From NCBI GenBank assembly GCA_029881055.1, contig JAOUNH010000005.1, forward strand, positions 1 through 35,365: a stretch of 35,365 nucleotides of DNA, written 5' to 3'. A program made the position numbers and the translations under genes. Shown one piece after another: positions 1,358-35,365 of this stretch (the first letter of the stretch is position 1; every line of letters begins with the position of its first letter). Source of the stretch: Gammaproteobacteria bacterium (GTDB lineage Bacteria; Pseudomonadota; Gammaproteobacteria; Steroidobacterales; Woeseiaceae). The notes under the pieces were generated by a model. It saw only the letters and a list, made by a program, of their open reading frames with translations, was not told the origin of the DNA and ran no database searches.

Positions 1358-3055
1358 GTGAAAAATTTTGCAGCCATTGTAGTTATCGTCCTGAGTAGCT
1401 TGTCGTTCGGATGCAGTAAACAGGCTCCCGCGCCGGAGACATCCGATACGGGCCCCGTGAACGGCCAGCTCGCCGCGGCGCAGGCGGCGCTGCAGATTGA
1501 TGGCGAATACATGCGCGCAATCGTCAAGGAGATTTCCGACGACCGTTATGAAGGGCGTGGCCCGGGCACGCGCGGTGACGATGCCGCCCGAAAGTACCTT
1601 GCCGATCAGATGGCAGCTCTGGGTTTGCAGCCTGGCGCGGCCGACGGCAGCTGGGATCAGACATTCGACCTGGTTGGTATCAATGCATCACAACCGGCGA
1701 CGTGGATCTTCGAGGAAGACGGCAAGTCTCTTACATTAAAACAGTGGGAGCAGTTTATCGTCGGCAGTGGTGTTCAGGAACCGCAATCCGAAATTAGCGA
1801 TGCGGAGCTCGTCTTTGTTGGCTACGGCATACAGGCGCCGGAATTCGATTGGGACGACTACAAAGGCATCGATCTCAAAGGCAAAGTCCTCGTCATGATG
1901 AATAACGATCCCGACTGGGATCCGGAATTGTTCGCCGGCGAAACCCGGCTCTGGTACGGTCGCTGGGACTACAAATACCTCAGCGCCGCACAGCAGGGTG
2001 CCGCGGGTGCAATCATCATTCATACCGCTCCGTCAGCCGGCTATCCATTCCAGGTCGTGCAGACTTCATGGACAGGTGTGCAATTTGAACTGCCCGCGGG
2101 CGACGAGCCACGTAGTCAGGTCAAAGCCTGGATTACCGAAGACTCCGCGCGTGAACTGGTCGCAATGGCCGGCATGGATCTCGACGAGCTTCGTGAGCAG
2201 GCCTACAACCGTGACTTCAAACCCGTCCCATTGGGTATTACAACGTCGATCGCGTTCGACAATGAATTGACGCGCGTAACCACAGGCAACGTTCTGGGGT
2301 TGTTGCCCGGCAGTGATCCGGAGCTTAAAGACGAAGTCGTGATTTATTCTGCGCACCACGACCATCTTGGAATCGGTACGCCAAACGCCGAAGGCGATGC
2401 TATCTATAACGGTGCTAGGGATAACGGCAGCGGCATGGCACTGACGTTGGCGATTGCGAGGGCCATGGTGGCATTACCGGAAGCGCCACGTCGCTCCGTC
2501 CTGTTCGCGTTCGTTGGTGCGGAGGAGCAAGGACTGCTTGGCTCCGAGTACTACGCAAACCATCCGACATTCCCGCGTGGAAAAATCGCGGCCAATATCA
2601 ACTACGACAGCGTCAATATCTGGGGTCACAGTCATGACGTAACCTACGTTGGCCTCGGCAAGTCAACGATCGACCAGATCCTGACGGACTTCGCGACAAA
2701 ACAAAATCGCGTTGTAAAGCCGGACCAGTTCGCCGACAAGGGCTACTTCTACCGTTCCGACCAGTTCAACTTCGCGAAGATTGGCGTACCTGCGATGTAC
2801 CTGAAAGCGGGCACGGACTTCATCGATCGCCCGCCTGAGTGGGGACGCGAGCAGCAGGACAAGCATACTGAAGAGGATTACCACCAGCCTACCGATGAAT
2901 ACGATCCGAGCTGGACTTTCGACGGCATGGTGGATGACGGCTTGCTTGGATTCTGGACTGGTCTGGCTATCGCTAACGCTGACGAAATGCCAGTCTGGAA
3001 CGTGGGCGACGAGTTTGAAGCGGCCCGAATTGAAGCACTGGCGCCGGCCGAGTAG
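1358..3055 (+). CDS. M28 family zinc metallopeptidase, lipoprotein
   Basis: A 565-residue protein from a GTG start. The N-terminus has a lipoprotein signal (lipobox LSFGC, Cys about 19), so it should be lipid-anchored in the envelope. Residues about 140-270 form a protease-associated (PA) insert (DLKGKVLVMMNNDP, GAAGAIIIHTAPSAG). The C-terminal catalytic domain keeps the M28 co-catalytic zinc site: HHDH at 333-336, Asp in NGARDNGSG near 355, GAEEQG with Glu 389-390, NYDSVN, and a late DRPPEW...KHTEEDYHQPTDEY segment with the last His ligand. It probably removes amino-terminal residues from peptides. The DUF885 gene starts 10 bases after its stop, suggesting one operon for peptide degradation. 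Specificity cannot be read from sequence. Confidence 0.93.
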   Translation: MKNFAAIVVIVLSSLSFGCSKQAPAPETSDTGPVNGQLAAAQAALQIDGEYMRAIVKEISDDRYEGRGPGTRGDDAARKYLADQMAALGLQPGAADGSWDQTFDLVGINASQPATWIFEEDGKSLTLKQWEQFIVGSGVQEPQSEISDAELVFVGYGIQAPEFDWDDYKGIDLKGKVLVMMNNDPDWDPELFAGETRLWYGRWDYKYLSAAQQGAAGAIIIHTAPSAGYPFQVVQTSWTGVQFELPAGDEPRSQVKAWITEDSARELVAMAGMDLDELREQAYNRDFKPVPLGITTSIAFDNELTRVTTGNVLGLLPGSDPELKDEVVIYSAHHDHLGIGTPNAEGDAIYNGARDNGSGMALTLAIARAMVALPEAPRRSVLFAFVGAEEQGLLGSEYYANHPTFPRGKIAANINYDSVNIWGHSHDVTYVGLGKSTIDQILTDFATKQNRVVKPDQFADKGYFYRSDQFNFAKIGVPAMYLKAGTDFIDRPPEWGREQQDKHTEEDYHQPTDEYDPSWTFDGMVDDGLLGFWTGLAIANADEMPVWNVGDEFEAARIEALAPAE

Positions 3056-3064
3056 GGGACACCG

Positions 3065-4822
3065 ATGAAACTACTTCCAGTCCCGGCTCTGGTGTTGGCA
3101 TTGATGCTTTTGTCGAGCGCAGCTCTTGCTGATAAATCCACGGCAGAGCAGCAGCTCGACGCCATCATGGCAGAACACTGGGACTACTCTTTAGAAGAGA
3201 GCCCGACTCTGGCCACTGCGGTTGGCGTTAACGACTACAACGACCGCATGCCGAGTGACACACGCGAGAGCCAGCTAAAGCGCCTTGCTGCGGAGCAGGC
3301 GTTCTTGCGCCGGGTTGACGATATCGACAGCGAATCGTTGAGTCAGGCCGGCCGTGCCAACCTGGCTATCTTCAAGTGGGTGCTTGAGGATTCGATCGGC
3401 GATTACGAACTCAACCTCTCGAGAATTCCGTTCAATACTTTTTCCGGCTTTTTCATGAACGCGTTGTCGGCCAGCGACAGCGTAGCGATGTCGAGCGTCG
3501 ACGACTACGAGGATTACATCGCCCGACTGTCGGATATCCCGCGCTACTTCAATGAGAACATGAACAACATGCGTGCCGGCATTGCGAGTGGCTTTGTCCT
3601 GCCGCAAATCGTCATCGATGGCGTATTGCCGACGATCCAGGCGCAAGTTAAAGACGATCCGGAGGACAGCAGCTTCTACGAGCAGTTTGCCGAGATGAGT
3701 GATCGCCTCAGCGACGCCGACAAAGCGCGCCTGCGTGCGCAGGGCCGAACGGTGATTCGCGACAAAGTGTTGCCAGCGTTTGCCGAGTTGGCAACGTTCC
3801 TCCGGGACGAATACAAAGCCAGCGAAACCGTGGGCGCCGCCGACCTTGACGAAGGTGCGGACTACTACGCGTTTAATATCAAGCGATACACGACGCTAAC
3901 GGATGCGAGCGCTAACGAGATTCATCAAATCGGTCTTGGCGAAGTGAAGCGCATTCGCGCGGAGATGGATGCAATTATCTCGGAACTCAAATTCGACGGT
4001 GATTTTGCTTCGTTCGGAAAATTCTTGCGCACCGACCCTCAGTTCTACGCATCCAGCAAGGAGCAGTTGCTCAAGGAAGCTGCCTACATTGCAAAGCGCA
4101 TCGACTACGTGATGCCCGGATATTTCGGCAAGTTGCCTCGTCAGCCTTATGGCATCGTCCCGGTGCCGGATGAGATCGCACCGAATTACACGACGGGCGC
4201 CTACTACGGCGCACCGCCGGGCTCGCGACATGGCGGTGCATACTGGATCAACACTTACGCGCTCGATCAAAGGCCCTTGTACGAGCTCCCGGCACTGACA
4301 TTGCATGAGGCCGTGCCCGGCCATCACCACCAGAACGCAATCTCGAAGGAACTGGAAGATGTCCCGGCGTTTCGACGTGGTCTCTATTTCAGTGCTTTTG
4401 GCGAGGGTTGGGGCCTGTATTCCGAAAAGCTTGGCGTGGAGATGGGCATTTATGAAACGCCTTACGAGAATTTCGGACGACTCAGTTACGAGATGTGGAG
4501 GGCGTGCCGCCTGGTTGTAGATACCGGTTTGCATTCACAGGGCTGGACTCGCCAGCAGGCAATAGATTTTTTCTTTAACAACACGTCTTTGTCTGAAGGA
4601 AATATTCGTGCCGAAGTCGATCGCTACATTTCCTGGCCGGGTCAGGCGCTGGCCTACAAACTGGGCGAGCTGAAAATTTGGGAATTGCGTCGCATCGCCG
4701 AGCACGACCTGGGCGATCGATTCGACTTGCGGGAGTTTCACGACGTGGTGCTGGGTAATGGCGCAGTGCCGCTCGCGATGCTGGAAGATATCGTTCTGCG
4801 CTGGATAGAGTCGAAAATGTGA
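3065..4822 (+). CDS. DUF885 family exported protein (putative metallopeptidase)
   Basis: 585 residues with a Sec signal peptide cleaved after ALA (about residue 22). The DUF885 hallmarks are present: LTLHEAVPGHHHQ near residues 412-422 (an HExxPGH zinc-type motif) and FGEGWGLYSEKLG about 30 residues later. The N-terminal helical region (about 30-390) is typical of the family. DUF885 proteins are generally regarded as zinc-peptidase-like, so a periplasmic peptidase is likely but inferred. An AGGGGA ribosome binding site lies in the 9-base gap after the M28 gene, so the two are almost certainly co-transcribed. A second, divergent member of the same family lies at 31307-33061. Confidence 0.92.
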   Translation: MKLLPVPALVLALMLLSSAALADKSTAEQQLDAIMAEHWDYSLEESPTLATAVGVNDYNDRMPSDTRESQLKRLAAEQAFLRRVDDIDSESLSQAGRANLAIFKWVLEDSIGDYELNLSRIPFNTFSGFFMNALSASDSVAMSSVDDYEDYIARLSDIPRYFNENMNNMRAGIASGFVLPQIVIDGVLPTIQAQVKDDPEDSSFYEQFAEMSDRLSDADKARLRAQGRTVIRDKVLPAFAELATFLRDEYKASETVGAADLDEGADYYAFNIKRYTTLTDASANEIHQIGLGEVKRIRAEMDAIISELKFDGDFASFGKFLRTDPQFYASSKEQLLKEAAYIAKRIDYVMPGYFGKLPRQPYGIVPVPDEIAPNYTTGAYYGAPPGSRHGGAYWINTYALDQRPLYELPALTLHEAVPGHHHQNAISKELEDVPAFRRGLYFSAFGEGWGLYSEKLGVEMGIYETPYENFGRLSYEMWRACRLVVDTGLHSQGWTRQQAIDFFFNNTSLSEGNIRAEVDRYISWPGQALAYKLGELKIWELRRIAEHDLGDRFDLREFHDVVLGNGAVPLAMLEDIVLRWIESKM

Positions 4823-21010: not shown

Positions 21011-21244
21011 ATGAGCAGAGCGACGATTCTCGACTGGACCGACTCACAGGTCCTGCTGAAATTCGACGACCACCGGGACGTAAAGTATCGGGTCTATCGT
21101 GACGGCACCGAGCACTTCCTGGACATACGCAGCGCCGACGATGAACCGATACATACGCTGGAATTGCCGGACGGCATGAAACTCGACAAGTCGAGTTATG
21201 AAGTGTTGCTGCGCTACGTCCTGCTGGACGTCGTGGCCGCATAG
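21011..21244 (+). CDS. Small 77-residue protein under a sigma-54 promoter (unknown)
   Basis: The ORF begins MSRATILDWTDSQVLLKFDD with GGAG six bases before the ATG. It is soluble and acidic, has no signal peptide or membrane helix, and appears to be a mainly beta N-terminal half (VLLKFDDHRDVKYRVYRDG, EHFLDIRS) and a C-terminal helix (SYEVLLRYVLLDVVAA). I do not recognise the family. Its reading frame is supported by the ribosome binding site and the near-perfect sigma-54 promoter. It converges on the M19 dipeptidase gene, and the two coding ends overlap by 31 bases, so high expression of one could interfere with the other. Confidence 0.8.
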   Translation: MSRATILDWTDSQVLLKFDDHRDVKYRVYRDGTEHFLDIRSADDEPIHTLELPDGMKLDKSSYEVLLRYVLLDVVAA

Positions 21245-22431
21245 TCCGCGACTGCTTGCCAAACACGGAGCAGATTCTCGCCCAGAATCTTCCGGATGTC
21301 GGCCTCGCTGTAGCCACGATCCAACAGGCCCTTGATGAGGTTAGGGTAAGCGCTGACATCTTTTAGACCGACAGGCAGAGAATCGCCGACGCCATCGAAG
21401 TCTGATCCGATACCGACGTTCTCAATGCTGGTCAGCTTTACGACGTGATCGATGTGGTCTAACACATCGTCCAGCGTTGCGAACGGCAACTTTCCGTGTT
21501 CAGCTTCGAAAATCGCGGGATACAGGCGGTACATATCCCTTTCGGATAACTCCGGATGCTGAGCGGCGTAGGCTTTGCCGGCTTCGGTGCGAGCCGTCAT
21601 ATATTCGCGCGCTGCAGCCGTGATAAAGCTGGATCCGAAATTGATCTGAACTACGCCGCCCTTGCTGGCGAGAGCCCTGATCATGTCGTCACTCATGTTG
21701 CGCTCAAAGTTCGGCGTGAAGTGGCGGGCGGAGGAGTGTGATGCGATGACCGGTGCCTTGCTGAGTTCGATAATTTGCCAAAACGCGTCGTCGGATACGT
21801 GGCTGACGTCAACCATGATTCCCAGGCGATTCATTTCTGCGACGACTTCGGCCCCGAAGTCACTCAAGCCGTTCCATTGCCGTCGCTCGTCATAGGAAGA
21901 GTCGGCGAGGTGGTTTGACGAGCTGTGGGTGAGCGTGATGTAGCGGATACCGCGGTCGTAGAAATATTGAAGATTGGCGAGGTCGCCCTCCAGCGGCGAG
22001 CCATTTTCCATGCCCATCGGGAGCGACATGAGGCCTGCGGCAAACTGCTCGCGAACGTCGGCAGGGGACCTGGCAATTGCAAATTTGTCCGGCGATTGTT
22101 CGACGATGCCCTCGACGATATCGATTAATCCGTCCGCGACGTCCCGGGACCGGCCGGTGGCTTCCAGTGACGCCGGCGTGTAAATCGACATGAATGGCAC
22201 GTTCAGGCCACCTTCCACGGCCCGCGGATAATCGAAATCACCGCTTTCTGTTGCGGCGGAAACGTTGTCGGGCCGGGCCTCCAAGCGGTACGGAACGTCA
22301 ATGTGCGTATCGACAACGATGCCTTCTTTAGCGATTCGCTGTGCCAGGGCGCCCGTATCTGCAGTCTCGGAACGGTCGCAAGCGGAGATTGCAAAGGCGC
22401 AAATAGCCGCAATAAGGAGTTTTTGCATCAT
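21214..22431 (-). CDS. Membrane dipeptidase (peptidase M19), lipoprotein
   Basis: 405 residues from the ATG at 22431, where a lipoprotein signal begins (MMQKLLIAAICAFAISAC, lipid Cys 18); the ORF extends further upstream, but those residues are not signal-like. The renal-dipeptidase fold keeps its zinc ligands: VVDTHID (His 43, Asp 45), MGMENGSPLEGD (Glu 142), VDVSHVSD (His 211) and VIASHSSARH (His 232), plus GIGSDFDG. It should cleave dipeptides, possibly D-residue-containing ones, in the periplasm. Its last codons overlap the convergent 77-aa gene. It is divergent from the DUF4389 gene, leaving about 70 bases for two promoters. Confidence 0.92.
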   Translation of the reverse strand: MMQKLLIAAICAFAISACDRSETADTGALAQRIAKEGIVVDTHIDVPYRLEARPDNVSAATESGDFDYPRAVEGGLNVPFMSIYTPASLEATGRSRDVADGLIDIVEGIVEQSPDKFAIARSPADVREQFAAGLMSLPMGMENGSPLEGDLANLQYFYDRGIRYITLTHSSSNHLADSSYDERRQWNGLSDFGAEVVAEMNRLGIMVDVSHVSDDAFWQIIELSKAPVIASHSSARHFTPNFERNMSDDMIRALASKGGVVQINFGSSFITAAAREYMTARTEAGKAYAAQHPELSERDMYRLYPAIFEAEHGKLPFATLDDVLDHIDHVVKLTSIENVGIGSDFDGVGDSLPVGLKDVSAYPNLIKGLLDRGYSEADIRKILGENLLRVWQAVADYAATTSSRT

Positions 22432-22500
22432 GGGATATTTCGCTGGTTCGGAATGTCGAAGATTGTAACAATATGCAAAGGCCCGCACAGGAGCAATGCG

Positions 22501-22842
22501 ATGAGTGACCAGGATCGACCGGCAGATCATGTATTTGTCGACGAAAACAAGTCCGGCAACCCGATTGAGGAGAATCTGAAATCCAGGGTGACCTGGCTGC
22601 GAGGCCTGTTCATGCTCATCAGTTGTGCATTGATCAGCGTGGCATTCGCCGCGGGTTCATTGATTGTGGTACTTGGATTTTTCTGGGTGCTGTTCACTGG
22701 CGAGGTCAATCGGCAGATTCAGCAGGTGGGGCAGAGCGTGGCCAGCTACATCTACAACATCGCTTGCTATCTGACCTTCAACTCGGACGAGAAGCCGTTT
22801 CCCCTCGGCGGTGAGTGGCCGACGGCAAACAAGGCTGATTAA
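22501..22842 (+). CDS. DUF4389 small membrane protein
   Basis: 113 residues starting at the ATG at 22501 with CAGGAGC upstream. The N-terminal third is hydrophilic, a long hydrophobic region (about 34-68, RGLFMLISCALISVAFAAG...) spans the membrane, and the segment NRQIQQVGQSVASYIYNIAC leads to the family-typical ending YLTFNSDEKPFPLGGEWP. This matches the DUF4389 family of gammaproteobacteria, whose function is not known. It is convergent with the ribbon-helix-helix pair, with a gap of 26 bases. Confidence 0.85.
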   Translation: MSDQDRPADHVFVDENKSGNPIEENLKSRVTWLRGLFMLISCALISVAFAAGSLIVVLGFFWVLFTGEVNRQIQQVGQSVASYIYNIACYLTFNSDEKPFPLGGEWPTANKAD

Positions 22843-31306: not shown

Positions 31307-33061
31307 ATGCGAAATCGGATCACTTTTAGCTTAATTGCTGCAATTCTGCTGGCGAATTCCAGCCCGGCACTGGCGGCAACATGGGTCGAAAAGAGCGACG
31401 CCCATGCGCAGGTTGTGCTCGATGTCCTGGCAAAACTCAGCCCGGAAGGAGCGGGTCGACTTGGCGTGGACGGCCTGGATGAAGAAATATCGGATCTCGG
31501 ACCCGGCATCCAGGAGCGATCGAGAAAGATGTCTGCGGATTTGCTCGAGGAGCTAAAGGTTCGCCGCAAGAACGAGTCCGACAGCAAAGTGAGACAGGAC
31601 CTCGGAATCCTGATCAAGATGCTTGAAGACAACATCATGAGTGCGGATCTGAATTACGCGCAGATGCTGCCTTATTACAACATCAGCCAAACAATCTTTT
31701 TTGGTATACGCGGGATCATCGATCCGCAGAACTCGCGTGACCGTTACCCTGCGGCTATTGCCCGGCTTGAAAAATATGCAGGTGTTGCTGACGGTTACAC
31801 GCCGTTCACGCAACTCGCCAAGGACCGGACTACAGAGCGATTCGATGTCGAGGGCCTGGTCGGTCCATACCGCGGTGAGGTTGAGCAGGACCTGGAGCGT
31901 GCTGAGACGATGATCGCCGGTATCGAAGACCTGCTCGCAGGTACCGACCTGCAGGGATGGGAAGAGAGCTACGCAACCCTTGCCGGCCAAATGCGGGAAT
32001 ATTCCGACTGGGTCAGGGCGGAAATTCTGCCTCGCGCGCGTGACGACTTCCGCCTGCCAGCTGATCTTTACGAGGATGCGCTAAGGCAATGGGGTGTGGA
32101 CGCCGAGCCGATGGATCTGATCGAGCAGGCGACCAAGGGTTACATGGACATTCGCGGTGAAATGGAGGCGCTCGCGCCTTTGATTGCGGCGGAAAAAGGC
32201 TACGACACTACCGATTACCGTGAGGTAATCAGGTTGCTGAAACGCGACGGAGCTATCGACGGCGACAAGTTGCTCGACCATTACAATTCCGTTCTGCAGG
32301 CCATCGAAGAGATTATCGTGCGCGAAAAACTCATCTCGTTGCCCGAGCGCAAGGCTGGAATTCGGATTGCATCCGCCGCAGAGACCGCGGCACAGCCGGC
32401 GCCGCATTTGCAGCCGCCGCGCTTGATCGGAAATACCGGCGAATACCCGTTTTTCGTGATTCCACTGTTGACGCAAAACGACGATGGCAGTTGGAAACAA
32501 ACGGACGACACCTACGAGGCGGGCGCCTGGACGCTGACAGCGCACGAAGCGCGGCCCGGTCACGAGATGCAGTTCTCCAGCATTGTCGAGTCAGGAGTGT
32601 CAATCACCCGTGCGGTCTTCGCTTTCAACAGTGTCAATGTCGAAGGCTGGGGGCTTTATGCCGAGGCTATCGTGCGTCCGTACTTGCCTTTGGAAGGCCA
32701 GATGATCAGTCTGCAATATCGATTGATGCGCGCGGCGCGAATGTTCCTCGATCCCATGTTGAATCTCGGACTGATCACGCCGGAAGAAGCCAAGAGCCTC
32801 ATTATGAATGACGTGGCTATCGGCGAATCCTGGGCTCAGAACGAAGTGGAACGGTACACCTATCGAATGCCGGGACAGGCGACGGCCTATTACTACGGCT
32901 ACAGCAAGATGCAGTCGCTCAGAGCACAGACCGAATTGAAACTCCGTGACAAGTTTGATCAACAGGCGTTTCACGACTTCATTCTGGACCAGGGCATGCT
33001 GCCGCCGCATATTCTCAAGGAAGCAGTAATGAACGAGTTCGTGCCGAGCCAGCTTGATTGA
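31307..33061 (+). CDS. DUF885 family exported protein, second copy
   Basis: 584 residues from an ATG with GGGGAG nine bases upstream. The Sec signal is cleaved after ALA (about residue 23). The DUF885 core is present: TAHEARPGHEMQFSS (HExxPGH at 413-419) and VNVEGWGLYAEAIVRPYLPL about 35 residues later. It is the same length as the copy at 3065-4822, and the HExxPGH motif lies at the same position to within one residue. It is nevertheless clearly diverged in sequence (HEARPGH against HEAVPGH), so the two are old paralogs rather than a recent duplication. It is probably a periplasmic zinc peptidase, by inference. It may be co-transcribed with the zinc-ribbon, SDR and queC genes. Confidence 0.91.
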   Translation: MRNRITFSLIAAILLANSSPALAATWVEKSDAHAQVVLDVLAKLSPEGAGRLGVDGLDEEISDLGPGIQERSRKMSADLLEELKVRRKNESDSKVRQDLGILIKMLEDNIMSADLNYAQMLPYYNISQTIFFGIRGIIDPQNSRDRYPAAIARLEKYAGVADGYTPFTQLAKDRTTERFDVEGLVGPYRGEVEQDLERAETMIAGIEDLLAGTDLQGWEESYATLAGQMREYSDWVRAEILPRARDDFRLPADLYEDALRQWGVDAEPMDLIEQATKGYMDIRGEMEALAPLIAAEKGYDTTDYREVIRLLKRDGAIDGDKLLDHYNSVLQAIEEIIVREKLISLPERKAGIRIASAAETAAQPAPHLQPPRLIGNTGEYPFFVIPLLTQNDDGSWKQTDDTYEAGAWTLTAHEARPGHEMQFSSIVESGVSITRAVFAFNSVNVEGWGLYAEAIVRPYLPLEGQMISLQYRLMRAARMFLDPMLNLGLITPEEAKSLIMNDVAIGESWAQNEVERYTYRMPGQATAYYYGYSKMQSLRAQTELKLRDKFDQQAFHDFILDQGMLPPHILKEAVMNEFVPSQLD

Positions 33062-33090: not shown

Positions 33091-33122
33091 CTCCGGTTTC
33101 CCGATCGAAAGGGGAACCGGAG
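33091..33122 (+). promoter_or_regulatory. Hairpin covering the ribosome binding site of the zinc-ribbon gene
   Basis: CTCCGGTTTCCC (33091-33102) pairs with GGGGAACCGGAG (33111-33122) across an 8-base loop, with one G-U wobble. The right arm contains the GGGG ribosome binding site and ends on the first base of the GTG start at 33122. In a read-through transcript it would hide the translation start. A TATACT box at 33087-33092 could instead start a transcript lacking the left arm. Confidence 0.5.
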
Positions 33123-33433
33123 TGTCCCACAAGCTAGCCTGTTACCGTTGCGGCGAATCGCTCGCCGCTTTCCCATTGCCACTCTCACGGCGCGACGCGT
33201 GCCCACAATGCAGCGCGGATCTGCATGTCTGCAAAATGTGCCGTCACTTCGATCCTGTTGTGACGCGACAATGCCGCGAGGATGGAGCTGAGGATGTCAA
33301 AGACAAAGAGCGGCCCAACTTCTGCGACTGGTTCGTAGCCAGCGAAACAGCCTTCGATCCAAACCGAAAGTCTGCCGCCGATGCGGCGCAGCGAGCGCTC
33401 GAGGCGCTTTTTGGTGGTGGCAATGACGATTAA
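33122..33433 (+). CDS. Zinc-ribbon protein
   Basis: 103 residues from a GTG; no other start exists upstream in frame. It is dense in metal ligands: C7xxC10, C27xxC30 (CPQC), C37KMC40 with His 42, Cys 51 and Cys 68. This suggests two zinc ribbons or knuckles. The sequence LPLSRRDACPQCSADLHVCK, then RHFDPVVTRQCRED and NFCDWF, resembles a small gammaproteobacterial family of unknown role. No signal peptide is seen. The end is helical and basic/acidic mixed. It overlaps the SDR gene by 11 bases, so the two are co-translated. Its own start lies in a hairpin. Confidence 0.85.
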   Translation: MSHKLACYRCGESLAAFPLPLSRRDACPQCSADLHVCKMCRHFDPVVTRQCREDGAEDVKDKERPNFCDWFVASETAFDPNRKSAADAAQRALEALFGGGNDD

Positions 33434-34487
33434 CCGCCGCCGGTTTCTCGCCTACGCGGGTGCTGCCCTGGGAGCCACCCAGATCGTCGCATGCGGTGAA
33501 AACAAACTTGCGACCGAAGGCATACCGCGCAGCCGGTTCACCGGGAAATCGACCGCCGAGGAAGTTACAGCTGCGATCGACCTTGCCGGCAAAGTGGCTG
33601 TGGTGACCGGCTGCACCTCCGGCATCGGGCTTGAGACCATGCGTGTCCTCGCCGGTCGCGGTGCCTATGTCCTTGGTACCAGCCGTTCGTTAAAGCGAGC
33701 CGAAGACGCCTGCCGCAGCGTAACGGGTGTCACATCGCCGCTCAGCCTCGATCTTGCCGATTTTGATTCTGTCGTGAGGTGTGCTGAAACAATACGCTCG
33801 ATGCGACTGCCGATCGATATGCTCATCTGCAACGCAGGCTACCTTGGCGGCGGCAACAAAAAGCAACTGGTCAATGGCCTGGAAAAACACTTTGTCATTA
33901 ATCATCTCGGGCATTTCATTCTCGTAAACAGGTTGCTGGATCGGCTCGTGATCGCCAAACAGGGCCGTATAGTCGTTGTCGCCAGCCGGACGGCCTACAC
34001 CGAGGCACCTGCAGATGGAATCCAGTTTGACGACCTCGGCTTCGCTAATGACTACAGCGATTTGCGCGCATATGGGCACTCCAAGCTTGCTAACGTGCTG
34101 TTCTCACTGCGCCTGTCCGAACTCTTGCGCGGGACGCGAATCACCTGCAACTCCCTGCACCCAGGGATAGTGGATACGGAAATCGACCGGCACTTCAATT
34201 CTGTCATGCAGTTTGGTTTGCGAGTGGTCGCTGCGGTGGGTGGCAAGACTATTGAACAAGGCGCCGCCACATCCTGTTACGTGGCAACCAGCCCGGCGCT
34301 CGCAACGACCAGCGGGGCTTATTTCGAAGACTGTAATGCGGTGACGGTTCTTGGCCACAATCATCTGTACAACGTCCCCATGTCGGAAAGATTGCTGCAG
34401 ATGTCGGAGGAAATTACAGCGGACTTCCTCGTTGATCAGAAAGAACCAACAAAAGAAAATCTGCTTGATGATCGGGCGGCGACATGA
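33423..34487 (+). CDS. Short-chain dehydrogenase with Tat-lipoprotein leader
   Basis: 354 residues from the ATG at 33423, where a twin-arginine leader begins (MTINRRRFLAYAGAALGATQ) and runs into a lipobox IVAC (Cys 24). The mature part is a classical SDR: TGCTSGIG at 62-69 for NAD(P) binding, LDLAD at 109-113, NAG at 137-139, and the catalytic set Asn 160, Ser 188, Tyr 217 and Lys 221 (YGHSK), with HPGIVDT after it. It resembles retinol-dehydrogenase/WW-domain-oxidoreductase type SDRs. A Tat leader would fit export of a folded cofactor-loaded enzyme, but lipoprotein SDRs are unusual. It overlaps the zinc-ribbon gene by 11 bases and queC by four. Confidence 0.9.
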   Translation: MTINRRRFLAYAGAALGATQIVACGENKLATEGIPRSRFTGKSTAEEVTAAIDLAGKVAVVTGCTSGIGLETMRVLAGRGAYVLGTSRSLKRAEDACRSVTGVTSPLSLDLADFDSVVRCAETIRSMRLPIDMLICNAGYLGGGNKKQLVNGLEKHFVINHLGHFILVNRLLDRLVIAKQGRIVVVASRTAYTEAPADGIQFDDLGFANDYSDLRAYGHSKLANVLFSLRLSELLRGTRITCNSLHPGIVDTEIDRHFNSVMQFGLRVVAAVGGKTIEQGAATSCYVATSPALATTSGAYFEDCNAVTVLGHNHLYNVPMSERLLQMSEEITADFLVDQKEPTKENLLDDRAAT

Positions 34488-35149
34488 ACGAAAAGGCGCT
34501 GGTCGTTTTGTCGGGCGGTCAGGACTCAACGACCTGTGTTTACTGGGCTATTGAGAGGTTTGGTCGTGAGCAGGTATCAAGCGTAACCTTTGACTACGGA
34601 CAACGGCATCGTATTGAACTCGACTGCGCGAAAGAGATCGCCGAATTCGCTGGCATATCGAACGTCATTCTACCGATCGACACCTTCGCCGCCCTGGGCG
34701 GAAATGCACTGACAGATTCCGACATCGCAGTGGAGCGGGTCGTAAATTCGACATCCAGCCTTCCCAACACTTTTGTCCCCGGGCGTAACCTCGTATTCCT
34801 GACGTTTGCGGCCGCTCTTGCGTATCAGCGCGGCATTACTCACCTCGTTACGGGCGTTGCGCAAACCGACTATAGCGGCTACCCGGACTGCCGCGAGGAA
34901 ACCTTGCGCCTGTTACAGGAGGCGCTGCGAAAGGGAATGGAGTCGCAGGTTCAGATTCATACACCGTTGATGCATCTTTCGAAGAAAGAAACTGTTGCGA
35001 TGGCGAACGCACTTGGCGCTTTGCCGGCCATGGCATTGACACACACTTGCTACAACGGTGAACGTCCGCCCTGCGGCCATTGTGCCGCCTGCAAATTGCG
35101 AGCAAAAGGTTTCGTTGAAGCGGGTATCGCCGACCCCCTGCTGGGCTGA
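34484..35149 (+). CDS. queC: 7-cyano-7-deazaguanine synthase QueC
   Basis: 221 residues. The PP-loop motif LSGGQDSTTCVY (residues 9-20) binds ATP. FDYGQRHRIEL, SGYPDCREET and the zinc-binding Cys 189, 197, 200 and 203 (PPCGHCAACKLR) complete the family pattern. It converts 7-carboxy-7-deazaguanine to preQ0 with ATP and ammonia, the step before queuosine. The start overlaps the SDR stop (ATGA), and queE, the previous pathway step, begins two bases after its stop, so the order is SDR-queC-queE in one operon. Confidence 0.97.
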   Translation: MNEKALVVLSGGQDSTTCVYWAIERFGREQVSSVTFDYGQRHRIELDCAKEIAEFAGISNVILPIDTFAALGGNALTDSDIAVERVVNSTSSLPNTFVPGRNLVFLTFAAALAYQRGITHLVTGVAQTDYSGYPDCREETLRLLQEALRKGMESQVQIHTPLMHLSKKETVAMANALGALPAMALTHTCYNGERPPCGHCAACKLRAKGFVEAGIADPLLG

Positions 35150-35151
35150 CC

Positions 35152-35365
35152 ATGACGTATTCAGTCAAGGAAATGTATTACACCTTGCAGGGAGAGGGGG
35201 CTCATACCGGCCGTCCTGCTGTATTTCTGCGCTTTTCCGGTTGCAACCTGTGGTCGGGGCGAGAGGAACACCGCAATCAAGCTATATGCCGCTTCTGTGA
35301 CACGCAGTTTGTCGGCGTTGATGGGCCCGGTGGTGGCAAGTTTGAGTCCGCGCGGGAACTCGCCG
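35152..35365 (+). CDS. queE: 7-carboxy-7-deazaguanine synthase QueE, N-terminal part
   Basis: 71 residues are visible before the window ends. They begin MTYSVKEMYYTLQGEGAHTG, then RPAVFLRFSGCNLWSGREEH and CRFCDTQFVGVDG. The radical-SAM cysteines have the QueE-specific spacing, Cys-x14-Cys-x2-Cys, with the long insert WSGREEHRNQAI found in one large subgroup. It turns 6-carboxytetrahydropterin into 7-carboxy-7-deazaguanine, the substrate of QueC. It starts two bases after the queC stop, so the pair is co-transcribed. The C-terminal part is missing only because of the window edge. Confidence 0.95.
   Translation, partial: MTYSVKEMYYTLQGEGAHTGRPAVFLRFSGCNLWSGREEHRNQAICRFCDTQFVGVDGPGGGKFESARELA

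Follow-up and report, generated by a model that had tools for sequence, protein, structure and literature searches.

A predicted Tat-exported, lipid-anchored short-chain dehydrogenase in Woeseiaceae and related proteobacteria

In a gammaproteobacterium of the family Woeseiaceae, a 35,365-nucleotide stretch of contig JAOUNH010000005.1 (the whole stretch analyzed, hereafter the window) encodes a short-chain dehydrogenase (SDR) that begins with a conserved twin-arginine leader and a lipobox. We consider it likely, with a probability of about 0.6, that this protein is a member of a distinct clade of Tat-exported SDRs. Judging from its sequence and from analogy with known enzymes, it would be lipid-anchored, retain NADP(H) and run a nicotinoprotein cycle on a carbonyl or alcohol group. 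Predicted export and lipid anchoring are the well-supported parts of this reading. SDRs rank among the largest of the enzyme superfamilies; they are ordinarily cytoplasmic and exchange NAD(P)(H) with the pool of the cell. We know of no free NADP(H) pool in the periplasm, and conserved catalytic residues behind a Tat lipoprotein leader raise the question of how an SDR works in such a place. In the literature that we searched, which took in few subscription journals, a Tat-exported SDR family is not described. One Xanthomonas SDR is tabulated as periplasmic among cytoplasmic ones, in a passage that gives no link to Tat (PMC6774946).

The SDR gene and its neighbours are listed below. For the SDR gene, coordinates, overlaps and motifs are as given in the original prediction, which was made from the sequence of the window.

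31307-33061, + strand: DUF885 protein (Pfam), upstream neighbour of the zinc-ribbon gene and the SDR gene
33122-33433, + strand: zinc-ribbon-like Cys-rich protein of 103 aa with a GTG start, overlapping the SDR gene by 11 bases; a constant neighbour in Woeseiaceae, with no Pfam family above its cut-off
33423-34487, + strand: SDR with predicted Tat leader, 354 aa, ATG to stop (open reading frame, motifs, Pfam, NCBIfam, ortholog alignment)
33423-33494, + strand: leader, residues 1-24, with RRRFL, a hydrophobic stretch and the lipobox IVAC with Cys24 (ortholog conservation; helix 5-22 in the structural model)
33435-33449, + strand: RRRFL, residues 5-9 (R5 and R6 at ≥90% in alignments A1 and A2)
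33483-33494, + strand: lipobox IVAC, residues 21-24 (by eye, all 24 same-genus orthologs read have a Cys lipobox)
33606-33629, + strand: nucleotide-binding motif TGCTSGIG, residues 62-69 (sequence, alignments)
33900-33902, + strand: catalytic Asn160 (invariant in the 55-row alignment A2)
33984-33986, + strand: catalytic Ser188 (invariant in A2)
34071-34085, + strand: catalytic YxxxK, Tyr217 and Lys221 (both invariant in A2)
34484-35149, + strand: queC, overlapping the SDR gene by 4 bases; a neighbour outside the SDR system
35152-35365, + strand: queE, N-terminal part (the window ends here), Cx14CxxC type (TIGR04508, 1.1e-35)

The N-terminus of the protein reads MTINRRRFLAYAGAALGATQIVACGENK, where R5, R6, R7, F8 and L9 are followed by a weakly hydrophobic stretch and by a lipobox that leads to Cys24. 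Between codons 2 and 50 there is no in-frame ATG, GTG or TTG, which makes translation of a leaderless product from a downstream start unlikely. The alignments of full-length same-genus orthologs begin at residues 1-5, and on both grounds we discarded a mis-called start with a cytoplasmic product. Separately, we noted putative exported peptidases at window positions 1358-3055, 3065-4822, 21214-22530 and 31307-33061, all assigned by eye except the DUF885 protein at 31307-33061. Several such peptidases in a single window agree with the proteolytic lifestyle proposed for Woeseiales in a passage of PMC7082342.

The catalytic core behind this leader is intact, as had been claimed from the window alone. 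Pfam adh_short matches the protein at 95.8 bits (cut-off 26.6), the motif TGCTSGIG and N160, S188, Y217 and K221 are present, and all four of these residues, together with T62, G63, G67 and G69 of the TGxxxGxG motif, are invariant across the 55 rows of A2. We take the catalytic roles of Asn160, Ser188, Tyr217 and Lys221 from what is known of the SDR family. The AlphaFold model (pLDDT 92.6) predicts a Rossmann fold of the SDR kind. Its best structural matches are tied, namely the light-dependent protochlorophyllide oxidoreductase LPOR (6l1h_B, with Z 34.1 and an rmsd of 2.0 over 273 residues) and 3rd5 (Z 33.7), an uncharacterized mycobacterial protein. Further matches, at Z 25-27, include many short-chain dehydrogenase chains.

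As a rule, a basic residue after the second strand marks NADP(H) use. R88, which occupies this position, is the same in all 55 rows of A2 and aligns with an Arg of LPOR, which favours NADP(H) rather than NAD(H) as the cofactor. With no free NADP(H) pool known in the periplasm, the SDR would most likely retain its nucleotide. We found no extra domain in the SDR able to lock the nucleotide in place. A conserved arm (STAEEV...DL.GK) that precedes the Rossmann core occurs in leaderless relatives as well, and thus it is not an export-specific nucleotide lock. The relatives of the window SDR are presumably of the retinol-dehydrogenase type, and this resemblance to retinol dehydrogenases and protochlorophyllide reductases suggests that the substrate is perhaps lipid-derived. 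Two cysteines, Cys64 (33612-33614, inside the nucleotide-binding motif) and Cys304 (34332-34334), do not vary among the 18 rows of A1; in the larger A2 (55 rows), Cys304 stays at ≥90% but Cys64 does not. A disulphide after export is possible.

The leader itself is conserved well beyond the window. SDR matches at E ≤ 1e-30 occur in 31 of 60 genomes (the window's own included). Inspection by eye showed RR and a Cys lipobox in each of the 24 same-genus orthologs that were extracted, and RR with an AxA-like end and no Cys lipobox in the same-genus paralogs L050, L062 and L063. A scan of named genomes matched at least 595 stretches, at least 543 of them relatives. We took the best 80, and this sample favours leader-bearing rows, because the ranking was by likeness to a query with its leader included. 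Among these best 80 of at least 543 relatives, 77 loci have a twin-arginine leader (L105 was removed by eye) and 66 a lipobox, four of which (L137, L150, L153 and L154) can also be read as AxA. Some relatives carry an AxA-like site in place of the lipobox behind the same twin-arginine start. Scoring of a fixed leader region gave 66 loci with a lipobox, 6 AxA-like, 6 other and 2 without RR; the initial automatic scoring gave 60 lipobox, 9 AxA, 10 unclear and 1 none. The exceptions are L147, which is leaderless, L105, where the leader region is apparently out of frame, and L112, which lies at a contig start with its VAAC end visible. Both R5 and R6 are nearly invariant (≥90%) in A1 (18 rows) and A2 (55 rows), while most of the other leader columns drift.

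In order to assess how often such a leader arises by chance, we applied a strict RR-plus-lipobox pattern to ORFs (≥150 aa, mechanically called) from loci L085-L164. The pattern matched 55 of the 78 ORFs of the SDR cluster (which include some next-door paralogs and leave out a few loci in which the frame chosen was an overlapping antisense one), as against 2 of 560 other ORFs. Shuffles of the window SDR's own N-terminus matched it in 253 of 100,000 cases. The Pfam TAT_signal model scores the window SDR at 13 bits (E 0.11), under its cut-off of 22.7.

The family is not rare in the order, with matches at E ≤ 1e-60 in 104 of the 246 genomes covered by a profile search (the window's own counted). 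Among the matches listed, most of those stronger than about 1e-118 begin at profile positions 1-4 (exceptions are, for example, G895, G980, G972, G883:C81, G873:C41 and G816:C32), and several weak ones near 1e-60 begin at positions 34-59. Another family of the order (f15) has up to five SDR matches per genome at this threshold (G868, G816, G827, G880, G890 and others), with some copies side by side, as in G816:C53. SDRs with the conserved leader occur in one group of proteobacteria from the sea and from soil.

Leaderless relatives are present in both the class and the phylum samples. In the phylum sample, most matches besides the window's own begin at profile positions 20-56, the earlier ones being G600 (position 5) and G693:C17 (position 16). 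We placed the two forms on an SDR core tree of 116 rows (80 with the leader, 34 without and 2 unscored). The leader state requires a single change, on a branch with an SH-aLRT of 94, whereas shuffles of the leader state over the same tree require 29.6 changes on average, and none of the 500 was as low as 1. The leaderless L080 and L147 adjoin the leader-bearing group. This is a tree of the quick kind, midpoint-rooted and with 33 open inner branches. Leader states were set by hand for L147, L177, L178, L179 and L181 (leaderless) and for L134 (leader-bearing), and the two rows without a state are L105, for its apparently out-of-frame leader region, and L112, for its contig start. Left out were L082, where the motif was not found, and L078, which has the same place as L030 and L049; since these two are also absent, one leader-bearing locus is missing. 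Losses inside the leader-bearing clade may be under-sampled, because likeness to a query with the leader decided the rank of the 80 loci. The original prediction had raised the case of orthologs that start near residue 40 without the leader; the leaderless forms that we found are more distant relatives only.

The window genome (83.7% complete) encodes both TatC (225 bits) and signal peptidase II (143 bits). Together with the conserved leader and its one change on the tree, these genes support the exported, lipid-anchored SDR predicted earlier. Tat moves folded, cofactor-loaded proteins. The SDR would thus fold in the cytoplasm and load NADP(H) there, be picked out by the Tat translocase, which would recognize the twin-arginine leader, and pass across the inner membrane in folded form. 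Signal peptidase II would then cut before Cys24, leaving the SDR lipid-anchored on the periplasmic side. There it would most likely keep its nucleotide bound and oxidize one substrate and reduce another in alternation, in a nicotinoprotein cycle like that of glucose-fructose oxidoreductase. The group acted on would be a carbonyl or an alcohol, perhaps of a lipid-derived compound.

The cofactor could have another part to play. The SDR may be Tat-exported and lipid-anchored as above, with a nucleotide that is structural, or it may work on envelope nucleotide together with other exported Rossmann proteins. We regard this as unlikely, though it is the best of the alternatives, and it draws on gene neighbourhoods outside the Woeseiaceae. 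In five related Alphaproteobacteria (L121, L124, L128, L130 and L158), the Tat-SDR gene lies directly downstream of the proton-translocating transhydrogenase genes pntAA-pntAB-pntB, assigned by Pfam in L121 and by clustering in the other four. Each of these loci also has two or three PF03807-type NADP-binding genes beside the SDR gene, 14 in all, of which nine have a Sec-like leader by eye, three have none and two are cut. The window genome has a PF03807 protein of its own, with a Sec-like leader by eye, elsewhere on the genome (L221:1153-1842, G000:C12). Against this reading, the catalytic residues of the SDR are invariant. The five pnt-linked loci, moreover, count as one event because they form a single lineage on the tree, and their leaders were called by eye and their Pfam assignments made on the L121 genes only. 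As a side observation, the stretch beside L221:1153-1842 looks by eye like a DUF885 gene.

In one gammaproteobacterium (L116:2-2095), an operon-like stretch holds a PF03807 gene truncated at the contig start, then an AhpC/TSA peroxiredoxin that by eye has a leader, and then the Tat-SDR gene. This second lineage, next to the alphaproteobacterial pnt loci, would allow the Tat-SDR to form, with other leader-bearing redox proteins, an NADP(H) redox system in the periplasm, which we put forward as a doubtful extension. If it were true, some proteobacteria would use nucleotides to reduce substrates such as lipid-derived aldehydes in a compartment that is not known to have a nucleotide pool.

It is improbable, in our judgment, that the SDR stays in the cytoplasm, held to the inner membrane by an N-terminal segment that is never cleaved off. 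A hydrophobic stretch that looks short and weak to the eye would fit such an anchor, and so would the relative L159, in which no clear cleavage site is seen. However, the near invariance of R5 and R6 amid drifting leader columns argues against such an anchor, as does the recurrence of a lipobox Cys or of AxA-like sites at a fitting distance.

Finally, we examined the proximity of the SDR gene to queC, which the original prediction took for a coupling and proposed to survey in related genomes. Among the best 80 of at least 543 relatives, 31 loci (L085-L115) are of the Woeseiaceae type. The zinc-ribbon gene is present in 30 of them, the contig of L112 beginning inside the SDR gene. In 25 of the 31, queC follows the SDR gene (the start of one queC could not be set), and in the other six it is absent beside the SDR gene with at least 4.9 kb of downstream sequence in each. 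In 5 of the 24 same-genus orthologs, a set that partly overlaps the 31 named loci, the SDR gene is directly followed by the small protein that elsewhere comes after queE, and searches of these five genomes found no queC anywhere at E ≤ 1e-20. Conversely, eight same-genus genomes have queC and no SDR ortholog. In the seven that we inspected (all but G026), the gene upstream of queC is directly the zinc-ribbon gene in five and DUF885 in one, and in the last the contig ends. Within flanks of up to 5 kb, much shorter in some, queC is found in none of the 49 other SDR loci of the best 80. Thus the adjacency, common as it is in Woeseiaceae, is local gene order and the queuosine genes are separable neighbours; the special coupling did not hold up, and queC was discarded as a general partner of the SDR. 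It is very improbable that the SDR works with QueC and QueE in queuosine or deazapurine chemistry: the SDR-queC spacing in Woeseiaceae is short (-11 to +38 bases in 24 of 25 loci, 10 of them with the 4-base overlap), but each gene occurs without the other, no queC was seen in the flanks of the SDR loci outside this group, and the leader would put the SDR on the other side of the membrane.

The context of the queC-queE pair is nevertheless odd, as had been remarked, since in the window and in the Woeseiaceae loci that we read the pair lies away from tol-pal. In four of four relatives from other families of the order (L072-L075), queE-queC stands behind tol-pal genes of the TolQ, TolR, TolB, Pal and CpoB kinds, some of which were scanned with Pfam in each locus and the rest assigned by eye. 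Those pairs resemble the window's in that the QueC and QueE genes adjoin; the window pair lies instead beside the SDR, zinc-ribbon and DUF885 genes. In the Woeseiaceae loci read, no tol-pal genes were seen beyond queE, which is followed by the small protein and then by a membrane protein (by eye), both without a Pfam family. Further genes after queE include a Fic protein (L052) and a formate-tetrahydrofolate ligase (by eye). The two kinds of pair also differ in sequence. Same-genus QueC proteins share 68-81% identity with that of the window, and those of other families of the order 38-46%. All four QueE proteins from those families pass TIGR04349 (rSAM_QueE_gams) at 343-355 bits (cut-off 300), whereas the window QueE is of the Cx14CxxC type: a complete same-genus QueE (L034) scores 336.8 bits against TIGR04508 (cut-off 240), and the fragment in the window reaches 123 bits over its 71 aa, under that whole-protein cut-off. 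Possibly the queC-queE pair was transferred or otherwise replaced in this genus, which would explain its odd gene context.

Returning to the predicted exported SDR, we compared it with three known kinds of enzyme. LPOR provides the closest solved folds, tied with 3rd5, and several of its structures are NADPH or NADP complexes by title. The window SDR is 25-28% identical to LPOR and scores 77.5 bits against TIGR01289 (cut-off 331), and LPOR function is not implied. The best NCBIfam match is to the PRK06196-type SDR oxidoreductases (NF004845, 229.5 bits), which have the same SDR core; the window SDR falls under their cut-off of 414, and the match begins at residue 36, behind the leader. The third, the glucose-fructose oxidoreductase of Zymomonas, belongs to the Gfo/Idh/MocA family rather than to the SDRs, no lipobox is mentioned for it in the passages concerned, and no Gfo/Idh/MocA domain is among the seven Pfam families listed for the window SDR up to E 1. 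It is nonetheless the known NADP case of Tat export, with a twin-arginine leader likewise on a periplasm-bound nicotinamide-nucleotide oxidoreductase, according to passages of PMC7317946 and PMC4628093.
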